A stretch of 64,000 nt of DNA from Chryseobacterium tructae (GTDB lineage: Bacteria > Bacteroidota > Bacteroidia > Flavobacteriales > Weeksellaceae): NCBI RefSeq assembly GCF_030409875.1, contig NZ_JAUFQR010000001.1, positions 3,782,001-3,846,000 on the forward strand, in the 5' to 3' direction. The position numbers and the translations under genes are program-made. Shown here one piece after another: positions 40,703 to 49,299 of the stretch (the stretch's first letter is position 1; the number at the start of each line of letters is the position of its first letter). Below the pieces are notes generated by a model. That model was given only the letters and a program-made list of their open reading frames with translations. It was not told the origin of the DNA and ran no database searches.

Positions 40703-41722
40703 CTACTTTTCATCAGGAATAATCAGCTCCTGATAATTTTTATTTCCAGCCTTGAATTTTTCTTCCATCCTTACTCGTAGTCTTCTTGGTTTATGGACAA
40801 TAAGAGAATCTCCAAAACCTAACAGCAACCTTTCCAATTCAAAATTGATTTGAACACAGATTTTAAAAAGGGTTCCCTCATTCGTTTCATCGATCACTTC
40901 CTGACTTTTATGCAAGGGTTTTGTTTTAATATAAGGAGCATTGGCTGAATCTACAAAGAATACAACATTTCTGGGAACCATAGATTCCGCAACAGTAACC
41001 CCCACAATATCCTTGAAGTATTCGTCACCATCCAGTTCCTTATCAATGTATGGAAGACTTTCGTCTGCTTCAATACTTTCCATTCTGTCCAAAGCCAGAT
41101 TGTACATCTTTTGCTTGTGTAAACAGATCAGAAACCACCGGTTATTAAATTCCTTCAGCAGTTGCGGATGAACTGTATATACACTTGATTCCCTTGCCGT
41201 AAAGCTTTTGTACAAAATTTTCAGTACCTTTTTATTGAGAATACTTTCATATAGGATATCAATATGTTCTAATCCTTTCAGTTGTTCATTTTTATCCAGA
41301 TGAATAATTGATTTCTGGTTGGTAGAATGAATGGAGTCTTCCAGTTTCTGAATAACACCATTCATCTCTTTAAACATAGAAAAATCTTTGAACTGTTTCA
41401 GGATCTGAACTGCGTTGTTCATTGCTTTCAGGTCACTTTCGTTCACTGAAATATTATGAATGCTGTAATCCGGATCACTGTAACGGTAATATTTTCTCTC
41501 ATACACCTCAATAGGTGCTTCATAACCAAACTTTTCACTCCGCATATTCTGAAGATCCAGCTGAATGGTTCTTTTGCTTACATAAGATTCTTTGCCTTCA
41601 AATTCAAATAATGCTTCGGAACATTCATCAATAAGATCTTCCAAAGTATACTTCCTGTATTTATTTTTGAGGCATTTATCTAATGTTTTATAGCGGATGA
41701 GAGCATTTTTATTAGATGACAT
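40703..41722 (-). CDS. WYL-domain transcriptional regulator
   Basis: 339 residues. N-terminal winged HTH (TLEDLIDECSEALFEFEG, then SKRTIQLDLQNMRSEKFGYEAPI), central WYL domain (ILYKSFTARESSVYTVHPQLLKEFNNRWFLIC) and a C-terminal extension with FELERLLLGFGDSLIVHKPRRLR. WYL regulators sense small ligands or nucleic acids. It lies 23 bases after the HopJ gene on the same strand and diverges from rtcB, so it may control rtcB in place of the sigma54-dependent RtcR found in other bacteria (inference). Confidence 0.88.
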   Translation of the reverse strand: MSSNKNALIRYKTLDKCLKNKYRKYTLEDLIDECSEALFEFEGKESYVSKRTIQLDLQNMRSEKFGYEAPIEVYERKYYRYSDPDYSIHNISVNESDLKAMNNAVQILKQFKDFSMFKEMNGVIQKLEDSIHSTNQKSIIHLDKNEQLKGLEHIDILYESILNKKVLKILYKSFTARESSVYTVHPQLLKEFNNRWFLICLHKQKMYNLALDRMESIEADESLPYIDKELDGDEYFKDIVGVTVAESMVPRNVVFFVDSANAPYIKTKPLHKSQEVIDETNEGTLFKICVQINFELERLLLGFGDSLIVHKPRRLRVRMEEKFKAGNKNYQELIIPDEK

Positions 41723-42095: not shown

Positions 42096-43628
<1,533 letters not shown>

Positions 43629-43654
43629 TTCCTTATTTAATATGACTCAATATA

Positions 43655-43735
43655 AACCTTATAGGTTTTAGAAACCTATAAGGTTGTTAAAAAACTAATA
43701 ACCAAGCCTTACAGGATAAAACCTGTAAGGTACAT
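43655..43735. repeat. Two perfect palindromes after rtcB
   Basis: AACCTTATAGGTTT with its complement around TAG (about 43657-43687), then CCTTACAGG with CCTGTAAGG around six bases (about 43710-43733). Neither has a strong T-run, so they are more like dispersed REP-type hairpins or mRNA stabilisers than terminators. Confidence 0.65.
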
Positions 43736-43757
43736 GAAAACTTTTTTCATAACGGCA

Positions 43758-43867
43758 GGGGCAGTAGCTCAGATGGTAGAGCAACAAAATTACTTTTCGC
43801 TGCAGGCAAATAAAGTTCCTATGAATTCCAATTGTGGGTCACAGGTTCGAGTCCTGTCTGCTCCTCA
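43758..43867 (+). ncRNA. tRNA-like RNA with a 52-base anticodon-arm region
   Basis: Acceptor stem GGGGCAG (43758-43764) pairs with CTGCTCC (43858-43864). D-stem GCTC (43767-43770) pairs with GAGC (43779-43782) around an AGATGGTAGA-type loop. The T-arm is ACAGG-TTCGAGT-CCTGT (43841-43857). The anticodon arm, normally 17 bases, spans 43784-43835: ACAA/TTGT outside, then an inner hairpin ACTTT/AAAGT (43792-43796 with 43812-43816) followed by TCCTAT. No conventional 7-base anticodon loop exists and no CCA is encoded. It is either a tRNA with an insertion, a tRNA mimic, or a pseudo-tRNA; it lies between rtcB and an unknown gene. Confidence 0.7.
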
Positions 43868-44010
43868 ATATAATTTCAGGCAAAGAAAGTTCCTATATTT
43901 CCCTATTTACTTTCCGCCTTTTTTACAAATCATAAGGCAAAGGGAGTTCCTATATATTTGGTCATTACTCCCCGCTTTATAAAACTATAGGTAAAAGGAG
44001 TTCCTATAAC
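43868..44010 (+). ncRNA. Repeated hairpins ending in AGTTCCTAT
   Basis: Three units follow the tRNA-like element, each with GGCAAA (or GGTAAA), then an AGTTCCTAT box (43888-43896, 43945-43953, 43999-44007). A fourth box is inside the tRNA-like arm (43814-43822). Two downstream units fold: ACTTTC with GGGAGT (43909-43914 with 43942-43947) plus GCC/GGC across an AAA bulge, and ACTCC with GGAGT (43967-43971 with 43997-44001). Paired positions change together among units, which supports an RNA structure. The first downstream unit lacks its own 5' arm. Confidence 0.6.
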
Positions 44011-44061
44011 ACTTCACTTTTAATGAACTTACTCCTCACTTATTTTTTTAAAATTAGAACA

Positions 44062-45495
44062 ATGAAAACATTACAATTATTCAATGCTGTATTGGCCAAA
44101 GAATCAAATGCAGAGCCATTTATTTCTAATGACGGTTTTATTATTGAACCTGATGCAGTTTGGGCAAAAAAAGACATCATCTCCTATTATTCAAAAGAAA
44201 AACTGAATGGAAATGATTTGAATAAAACGTTCCATAAATCCTGGGAAAAAATAAAGAATACTTCCAGAATTGACTTGTTTTTTGAACAGATCCAACACTA
44301 TATTTCAACCTATGGAAGTGATTTCCAGAGCGAGATCTATATTCCTCAAGAAATATTGAATGTTCCTGATACCAAGTTGATCTTTAAGGTCATAAAAGCT
44401 TATACCGTAGAAGAAATGCATGAAAAATGCCTTTCTCTTCTACAATCCGGAATCGCTTTGAAAGAAGAAACGATTGATGATCTGCTGTATATTCTGCATA
44501 CGGAACTGGAATATGATTTTACAGGAAAAGAAAATATCAGAAATAAGGAAGCCATTATAAAAATAGCTGATCGATATGATGCTTACCCTGAAAATCCTGT
44601 TGAATTTTTCCGTTATGTGATCTATAAGACAACCCAAACGACATTATTAATCAAAAATGATGAATTAATTGGTTTAATTAAGCAAAGTAAATTCAACCCA
44701 ACGTATCTGTTTGAAAGCTTTGGGGTGGAAAGACTGGCAGAAATTTTCAACAGATTTAAACCGTTATTCCTTGCTTATAAAAACAAGGCTCCGAAAGCGA
44801 TTAATAAGATCTCAAAGTTATCTAAGGTCAATCATAAGCCATTAGTATCCAACCCATTGAACAATGCTACAAATACATTACTGGAAAACAGTGATTGGCA
44901 TTGGCTGGAAAATGCGACACCGTTTGCATTATTTAAAGCATTATCAGCGTGTTACTCAAGAATGTATGGTCAGGATACTTTTGTCTACAGAATCAGAAAC
45001 GGGAAATCGTGGGTTAAAAAAGGTAAAGAAACTGATGTGAATCAATTCAACTATGAGTTTATTTTAGACTTTCTGAAACTGAAGTATGAACATATTTCCG
45101 GAAAGAAATTCTATTTCCCTAAGAATATAGAGTTTGCTCTTCCAACTTCTGAAAAAATGTTTGTTGGAAATATTCCTACCGGAACCCGTTTTTATGGTGA
45201 TAGATTAGCTGTTGGTGTCTATTGGGAAGATCAATGGGGTGCTCGTGACCTGGATCTTTCAGGATTAAATATCGCTGGAAAAATAGGTTGGAATGCAGCT
45301 TATAATTATGCTGACGGACAATTGATGTATTCAGGAGATATGACTTCTGCTCCTAATGGTGCTGTTGAATATCTTTACGCCAATAAAGGCCTGAGTACTC
45401 CAACACTTGTGATGAACAATGTTTCAGCGGAGACGCCAACTGTGGATATAAAATCGTTATTGGAAAAGGAGATAACATTTCCTACGGCTATATGA
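44062..45495 (+). CDS. RtcB-linked protein of unknown family, TerD-like motif at its end
   Basis: 477 residues from the ATG at 44062; an in-frame ATG at 44023 adds 13. Largely helical to residue 290, then a mixed domain. Near residues 390-450, ARDLDLSGL and YSGDMTSAPNGAVEYLYA resemble the DLDLS...SGD pattern of TerD-type domains (by eye only). The last 15 residues look unnatural. One base missing in the A-run at 45451 would replace them with KIVIGKGDNISYGYMMNPNQ and fuse this frame to the next ORF, giving one protein of about 585 residues. I do not recognise TROVE/Ro60 features. Location after rtcB and the tRNA-like RNA suggests an RNA-related role. Confidence 0.7.
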   Translation: MKTLQLFNAVLAKESNAEPFISNDGFIIEPDAVWAKKDIISYYSKEKLNGNDLNKTFHKSWEKIKNTSRIDLFFEQIQHYISTYGSDFQSEIYIPQEILNVPDTKLIFKVIKAYTVEEMHEKCLSLLQSGIALKEETIDDLLYILHTELEYDFTGKENIRNKEAIIKIADRYDAYPENPVEFFRYVIYKTTQTTLLIKNDELIGLIKQSKFNPTYLFESFGVERLAEIFNRFKPLFLAYKNKAPKAINKISKLSKVNHKPLVSNPLNNATNTLLENSDWHWLENATPFALFKALSACYSRMYGQDTFVYRIRNGKSWVKKGKETDVNQFNYEFILDFLKLKYEHISGKKFYFPKNIEFALPTSEKMFVGNIPTGTRFYGDRLAVGVYWEDQWGARDLDLSGLNIAGKIGWNAAYNYADGQLMYSGDMTSAPNGAVEYLYANKGLSTPTLVMNNVSAETPTVDIKSLLEKEITFPTAI

Positions 45496-45815
45496 TGAAT
45501 CCTAACCAACTCTTTGCAGAAGCCAGATGTAATTCTGTGCAGAAGCAAATGATTCTGGGAATGCTGCTGCCAAAAAACGAAAAACAATGTTTCGTACTGT
45601 TGAATTTCGGAGCAGGTCATTCTCATGTTTCTGGAAATACGGAAGTATCTATGATGGCCACCAGTGCATTGTATCAGCAATGGTATGAAGCAATGTCCTT
45701 CAATGAGCTTATCAAAGAGCTTGGAGGAGAAATTACTACAGAAAAAGCGGAAGCTGATTTTGATTTTTCTCTGGAAAGCCTGGAAAAAGATAGCTTTATA
45801 AAAGTCTTTAAATAA
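45492..45815 (+). CDS. C-terminal part of the RtcB-linked protein, out of frame
   Basis: 107 residues. The first ATG overlaps the preceding stop, but the same frame is open upstream to about 45441 and reads naturally as IVIGKGDNISYGYMMN. It is therefore better seen as the displaced C-terminus of the 44062 protein than as a separate translationally coupled gene. Ends with KDSFIKVFK and a terminator directly after. Features: NPNQLFAEARCNSVQKQMIL and LLNFGAGHSHVSG. Confidence 0.6.
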   Translation: MMNPNQLFAEARCNSVQKQMILGMLLPKNEKQCFVLLNFGAGHSHVSGNTEVSMMATSALYQQWYEAMSFNELIKELGGEITTEKAEADFDFSLESLEKDSFIKVFK

Positions 45816-48490: not shown

Positions 48491-48501
48491 ACACTACGTA
48501 A

Positions 48502-49299
<798 letters not shown>

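Follow-up and report, generated by a model that had tools for sequence, protein, structure and literature searches.

What does an RNA with the body of a tRNA and no anticodon arm do between a gene for an RtcB-like RNA ligase and a gene for a protein without a Pfam or NCBIfam family, and why does the motif that replaces the arm recur as hairpins in the leader of the latter gene? The question is raised by a stretch of 64,000 nucleotides (nt) of the Chryseobacterium tructae genome (RefSeq assembly GCF_030409875.1, contig NZ_JAUFQR010000001.1, positions 3,782,001-3,846,000), referred to below as the window, whose coordinates are used throughout. Our analysis makes it fairly likely that the protein, here called DP, binds both its leader and the tRNA mimic, repressing its own translation and forming a Y-RNA-like particle with the mimic, inside an RNA-repair regulon. 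The observations behind this explanation are the sequence pattern, the covariation of paired bases, the permutation of the motif, its linkage to DP, and the position of the last hairpin near the start codon. The elements concerned are listed below; R1 is a covariance model of the leader hairpin, and hairpins 1, 2 and 3 of the window are themselves members of the set of 51 hairpins behind it.

43758-43865, + strand: tRNA-like RNA, 108 nt (Rfam RF00005, 48.9 bits)
43758-43764/43858-43864, 43767-43782, 43841-43857 and 43865, + strand: acceptor stem, D arm, T arm and 3' base of the tRNA-like RNA
43792-43822, + strand: permuted motif at the site of the anticodon arm, ACTTTTCGC (3' strand), then GGCAAATAAAGTTCCTAT (5' strand)
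43876-43921, + strand: leader hairpin 1, GGC-AAA-GAAAGT-TCCTAT...ACTTTC-C-GCC (R1, E 6.4e-10)
43933-43979, + strand: leader hairpin 2, GGC-AAA-GGGAGT-TCCTAT...ACTCCC-C-GCT (R1, E 2.8e-11)
43987-44043, + strand: leader hairpin 3, GGT-AAA-AGGAGT-TCCTAT...ACTCCT-C-ACT (R1, E 1.1e-11)
44062-45815, + strand: gene of DP, the predicted RNA-binding partner, a single frame of about 584 amino acids (aa) in relatives

Within the window, the tRNA family (RF00005) is the only Rfam family to reach its gathering score, with the segment 43758-43865 (48.9 bits, E 2e-07, gathering score 29). Non-tRNA Rfam matches in 43600-44080 are all weak (best E 0.15), and ARAGORN called no tRNA anywhere in the window. Counted on the sequence, the anticodon arm has 52 nt as against 17 in a tRNA, and the usual 5+7+5 stem-loop is absent; the two strands of the permuted motif lie at 43792-43800 (3' strand) and 43805-43822 (5' strand). 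Among 64 distinct tRNA-like sequences, 48-70 nt separate the D and T stems, compared with about 23 in tRNA. The acceptor, D and T stems are paired in 97.6, 100 and 97.6% of the alignment cells of 42 homologues, the GG and TTCGA of the loops are conserved, and six of the seven acceptor pairs have changed on both sides, so that the 5' and 3' ends pair. The RNA was traced through 82 DP leaders, namely those of 80 DP loci (80 of 126 relatives kept), the window and locus L043: an anchor rule that makes no use of pairing found it in 66 of them and a stricter rule in 62, and 68 permuted units were counted in 66 leaders. At a few loci, e.g., L117 and L128, its stems are damaged. The tRNA-like RNAs of L134, L137 (second copy), L142 and L144 retain an anticodon-like stem-loop, e.g., GATTCATAATC, on the 3' side of the motif, which looks like the outcome of an insertion of the motif into the anticodon stem.

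The box AGTTCCTAT starts at 43814, 43888, 43945 and 43999, once in the tRNA-like RNA and once in each leader hairpin, and in the whole 5.6-Mb genome the pattern GGYAAANRRAGTTCCTAT is matched perfectly just four times, each time at this locus. The leader hairpins have the consensus GRY - A.A - about six pairs ending in GU - UCCUAU - loop - UAC - complement - C - complement of GRY. The order of the strands is reversed in the tRNA-like RNA, where ACUUUUCGC comes first, then a short loop, and GGCAAAUAAAGUUCCUAU last. The two forms are circular permutations of each other: the leader hairpins are closed at the UCCUAU end and the tRNA-like copy at the GRY end, its UCCUAU end facing the tRNA body. The permutation was read from the window sequence and is also seen in relatives. 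A preliminary description of this stretch had reported the tRNA-like RNA with its replaced anticodon arm, the sister hairpins and the four boxes, all of which our analysis confirmed. It had also taken the hairpin to be the same in both settings; the motif is indeed shared, but its strands run in the opposite order in the tRNA-like RNA. Similarly, its co-varying stem pairs are real, except that ACTTTC/GGGAGT combines strands from two adjacent hairpins: conserved pairing is local (GAAAGT/ACTTTC, GGGAGT/ACTCCC and AGGAGT/ACTCCT), and across the leaders local pairing holds in 1003 of 1036 instances versus 910 of 1036 for pairing with the neighbouring hairpin.

Both the tRNA-like RNA and the hairpins are under structural selection, and the comparative evidence for it is strong. 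It was used in place of single-sequence folding because the latter, applied to a 283-nt stretch, gave a mixed fold with a z of only -2.08, 7 of 200 shuffles being equally good. The alignments for covariation were built without structure. In the hairpin alignment (A7; 51 of 75 distinct leader units, with L043, L132 and loops longer than 36 nt left out), 94.7% of the cells are paired versus 77.8 ± 1.0 in shuffles, and the covariation score is 0.559 versus 0.251 ± 0.015. In the tRNA-like alignment (A6; 42 of 64 distinct sequences, with L043 left out), the corresponding values are 98.2% versus 89.9 ± 0.4 and 0.281 versus 0.119 ± 0.007. The shuffles ignore relatedness; the slid-partner controls, which keep it, did not exceed 0.187 for the hairpins and 0.073 for the tRNA-like RNAs. 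Of the 616 instances of the seven variable pairs in 88 distinct leader units, 572 form, as against 476.0 ± 5.7 with the 3' strands shuffled (maximum of 2000 shuffles, 499); of the 301 instances in 43 distinct permuted units, 269 form, as against 255.6 ± 2.6 (maximum 264). RNAalifold, run independently, predicts the identical hairpin structure, and individual hairpin positions show AU, UA and CG or GC alike. Of the five measures compared, two did not exceed the shuffles, namely the number of pair types in both alignments and the number of pairs changed on both sides in that of the hairpins. Structural conservation beside rtcB in related genomes, on which the preliminary description had made its reading depend, proved to be strong.

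Which neighbouring gene do these RNAs serve? Leader units were found upstream of DP in all 82 DP leaders, 230 units in total, with three units in 55 leaders, two in 20, four in six, and one in one (a leader unit of L145 was left unassigned in the motif parse). In 80 of the 82, the distance from the end of the last unit to the ATG is 13-30 nt, mostly about 20 nt; in the window, the paired part of hairpin 3 ends at 44040, 21 nt 5' of the start codon, and the whole stretch 18 nt before it. We compared 41 rtcB loci, 40 of which had been selected to give a spread and were no random sample. All 13 that have DP show a box no more than 1 kb behind rtcB, and none of the 28 that lack DP does, some of the latter having lone boxes kilobases away from rtcB. 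Conversely, the DP loci L139, L140, L141, L144, L146 and L147 have leader units and no rtcB in the flank fetched. In a draw of 395 genomes from the phylum Bacteroidota, including the genome and genus studied here, R1 matches occur in eight, namely in all seven that have DP and in G695 (the draws for R1 and DP were taken as the same from their equal tallies). All 22 R1 matches of the seven DP genomes lie within 400 nt upstream of DP, and G695 has one weak lone match (E 2.1e-4) and no DP in the locus fetched. In the genome of the window, three hairpins match R1 at E < 1e-9 and the next match is at 1.1 (150 of 10099 first-look candidates scored). Since the hairpins track the presence of DP and not that of rtcB, they appear to serve DP, in cis. 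Behind rtcB, 11 of the 13 DP loci have anchors of the tRNA-like RNA; of the 28 loci lacking DP three do, and these three carry either the gene of a 746-aa protein (L039) or a TROVE gene (L033 and L071). At L061, which has no DP, part of the final leader hairpin survives behind rtcB, a trace of module loss.

This distribution also bears on the partner considered in the preliminary description, RtcB, which would re-join the RNA after anticodon nucleases had cut the replaced arm, the RNA being a decoy, a damage sensor or a substrate. The arrangement of the genes is in keeping with such a role, as rtcB lies just upstream at most of the Chryseobacterium loci, RlaP and WYL genes are near it in the window, and rtcBA of Salmonella is induced by tRNA fragments, according to the available part of PMC7790460. 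However, the motif is tied to DP (82 of 82 leaders) and is missing behind rtcB where DP is missing (0 of 28), most of the leader hairpins bear the same boxes without being tRNA-like, and in Salmonella, as the same source has it in that part, fragments of the tRNA-like YrlA were not detected. Nor did anything in the sequences compared here point to cleavage at the boxes. We therefore consider RtcB an unlikely partner. A slightly less likely explanation still is that the hairpins are tandem transcription attenuators, similar to terminators, and that the tRNA-like RNA is a mere processing signal separating the rtcB and DP messages. T-rich stretches do follow the hairpins in the window and in many Chryseobacterium relatives, but several hairpins of Tenacibaculum (L132), Winogradskyella (L134) and Roseivirga (L140) have no T-run, termination has no need of the conserved loop and internal-loop bases (TCCTAT and A.A/C), and a processing signal alone leaves unexplained why the motif is shared with the tRNA-like RNA.

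Two further explanations are very improbable. The leader could be an RNA thermometer or a ligand riboswitch for DP that works without protein binding, given that it is structured and close to the start codon; yet the presence of mostly two to four copies of a small motif, together with a permuted copy in a separate tRNA-like RNA, fits a protein site better than a ligand pocket, as we would argue. Least credible is that the insert is an intron-like piece whose removal, with RtcB as the ligase, yields a working tRNA. The stem-loop retained after the motif in the four loci named above suits this idea; against it, too few bases for a 17-nt anticodon arm remain outside the motif (by eye) in L112, L117, L120-L122, L124, L136, L141 and L151, and on this length the intron reading was rejected. 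Moreover, no close parent tRNA was found among 64 ARAGORN predictions in 30 stretches of the same genome (best summed score 34/56), and the leader copies are not introns.

We return to DP as the reader of the motif. Its leader holds a repeated structured site near its own start codon, with a permuted copy in a separate tRNA-like RNA; that the product and the target belong together is what we infer. DP would bind the motif (GU-UCCUAU with the A.A/C internal loop) in any setting that brings the two strands together. When free, DP would shut off its own message, binding at the last hairpin hindering ribosome entry. The tRNA-like RNA, freed by tRNA-processing enzymes, may take DP up and compete with the leader, and could present its tRNA-shaped arms to those enzymes of the repair regulon that handle tRNA, be it RtcB, RlaP or a nuclease. 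When tRNA damage induces the regulon, the mimic would raise the output of DP and might tether or gate the enzymes of repair or decay, and the TerD domain of DP could add a signal input.

DP itself is predicted to be helical in its N-terminal region and to have a TerD fold at the C-terminus; a role as sensors of nucleotide derivatives has been suggested for TerD domains (PMC7159879, in the part available). One DP query has at least 2002 relatives at E <= 0.001 among the matches listed, and the closest named loci with the DP gene of the window are those of Chryseobacterium. Comparison with PDB sequences gave weak short matches only (best E 0.049), and a fold search with the N-terminal part gave no clear match. 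DP was also considered as a TROVE protein, which found no support at the level of sequence: two full-length DPs have no Pfam TROVE match at E up to 1, and DP meets the TROVE profile at E 0.27, while the Ro60 of L033 matches TROVE at 9.3e-10. In the present assembly a frameshift splits the DP frame into 44062-45495 (490 aa) and 45492-45815 (107 aa), by an assembly error or by decay; L132, with a stop in its translation, was kept out of alignment A2, and L092, L127 and L131 are broken as well. In 12 of 82 leaders, from Flavobacteriales outside Chryseobacterium (L132-L135, L137-L139, L142-L144, L148 and L149), one hairpin loop carries a mimic of the T arm (GGTTCGA type), which amounts to 12 of 230 units, compared with a count of 195 in the 2.1 million strand-bases of these loci. 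A T arm in the leader hairpin loops hints that DP, or a helper, also reads the tRNA elbow.

The same layout occurs with other proteins. At L039, a tRNA-like RNA comes after RtcB and before the 746-aa protein. Ten of the 296 genomes examined from the order encode this protein, and they belong to a single genus (L252-L261). All ten loci have a tRNA-like RNA and hairpins, with the conserved strands GGTCAA and TTACTTC, and three of these ten short loci encode RtcB homologues (29-31% identity). Including L039, leader units are present in 11 of 11 loci, where 228 of 272 pairs form versus 166.7 ± 8.3 in shuffles (maximum of 1000, 192); permuted copies lie inside the tRNA-like RNA in 10 of the 11, with 75 of 80 pairs versus 71.7 ± 1.3 (maximum 76), which is not distinctive. 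The 746-aa family, with at least 3876 relatives at E <= 0.01 among the matches listed, has a weak Prok-RING_4 match and a C-terminus resembling that of DP. It aligns with DP collinearly, though weakly (hhalign E 0.0038, probability 8.7), and we therefore make no claim that the two share an ancestor. In L033 (4280-4550) and L071, a tRNA-like RNA with a different insert, followed by a TROVE/Ro60 gene (PF05731, E 9.3e-10 in L033), stands between two RlaP genes. Read by eye, GTTACTTCG occurs in the leader and in the tRNA-like RNA alike at both loci, the tRNA-like RNA having ACACUUU...AAAGUUACUUCG and the leader hairpin, in permuted order, AAGGUUACUUCG...ACACCUU. At the other TROVE loci examined no tRNA-like RNA was found upstream (both anchors in none of 20 in one set and in none of the 11 listed from a set of 14); the Ro60 case therefore draws on L033 and L071. 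That the box changes with the protein, on an unchanged tRNA scaffold, is the best argument for the downstream protein as the reader of the box. Tentatively, and as something less likely than not, one may think of a general class of self-mimicking RNA-repair operons, in which DP, the 746-aa RING-4/TerD-like family and some Ro60 proteins each have their own two-strand site, inserted once where a tRNA mimic would have its anticodon and recurring, permuted, in their own message, so that damage to or processing of the mimic would set the amount of the repair protein.

The genes and sites around the module include the following:

40703-41722, - strand: WYL-domain protein, candidate regulator of the repeat (PF13280, E 6.1e-11)
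42189-42205, + strand: inverted repeat ACGCAA-N5-TTGCGC followed by TTACTTTG, predicted shared operator/promoter of rtcB
42234-43628, + strand: rtcB-like RNA ligase gene (PF01139, E 4.2e-34)
48496-48512, + strand: similar inverted repeat upstream of rlaP
48541-49299, + strand: RlaP, RNA repair nucleotidyltransferase family (PF10127, E 1.8e-71)

There are two RlaP-family matches downstream of DP, the second of them partial. The consensus of the repeat, with TTACTTTG downstream, is ACGCAA-N5-TTGCGY, and the copy before rlaP is one base off. In this genome the repeat is found in seven places at up to one mismatch (L183-L189), including, one base off, the position preceding a TROVE gene; at loci such as L141, L140 and L033 a similar repeat immediately precedes the tRNA-like RNA or the DP leader. 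Judged from sequence, the repeat with TTACTTTG putatively marks a small regulon of rtcB, rlaP, TROVE and a few other genes, and the WYL gene, divergent to rtcB, is its natural candidate regulator. The TROVE/Ro60 gene of this genome (G000:C1:4447059-4447805; L160, L189 and L274), preceded by the same operator, is split, its open frame being of 323 aa. As the DP and TROVE frames are both broken, perhaps through assembly errors, this genome may be unable to make either protein in full length. Two palindromic hairpins (43655-43685 and about 43700-43731), which are terminator-like or repeat elements, lie between rtcB and the tRNA-like RNA. In L072, the rtcB stop codon is adjoined by a segment similar to a tRNA 3' half, with TCT as the anticodon by eye; it may be an integration scar.

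With these results, two uncharacterised protein families, DP and the 746-aa family, gain a concrete and testable RNA partner, and two structured RNA families are indicated that Rfam does not hold as such. They further suggest that other proteins provide parallels to the Ro60/Y-RNA theme in bacterial RNA repair; the role of Y RNAs in RNA-repair operons becomes testable in culturable flavobacteria, and the natural circular permutation within one locus is a ready-made test of how a protein can read a duplex whatever the chain order. No earlier description of the layout was found among the titles and abstract openings searched in the open-licence literature, a mention elsewhere being possible. We regard it as a new variation on the Ro60/Y-RNA theme, the tRNA-like RNA being matched by Rfam only as tRNA.

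Compared with tRNA genes, the RNA described here shares the acceptor, D and T arms and the GG and TTCGA loops, and lacks the anticodon arm. The bacterial Y RNA YrlA, which acts with Ro60/Rsr in the rsr-yrlBA-rtcBA operon, is likewise a tRNA-mimicking RNA beside rtcB with a protein-binding stem and a tRNA-like body (PMC8394870 and PMC7790460, in their available portions), and the parallel drawn in the preliminary description between the mimic and such RNAs is supported; by analogy, we take it to be functional. Y RNA superposes on tRNA with a circular permutation (available portion of PMC11472068), whereas the RNA here is open at the acceptor. The partner of Y RNA is a TROVE protein, whereas DP has no TROVE match by sequence; leader mimic arrays, present here, are not mentioned for Y RNA in the available portions of these three sources. 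Among TerD domain proteins, DP differs in that its TerD domain is predicted to be joined to a helical N-terminal region, in an RNA-repair setting. Autogenous control by RNA mimicry is familiar from the leaders of ribosomal proteins. The tRNA-like thrS operator is another such case (PMC8394870, within the portion available). In these systems, as in the one proposed here, the leader carries a copy of the site that the product is thought to bind elsewhere; in DP leaders, where the repression is presumed, there are multiple copies, each a circular permutation of the one in the tRNA-like RNA.
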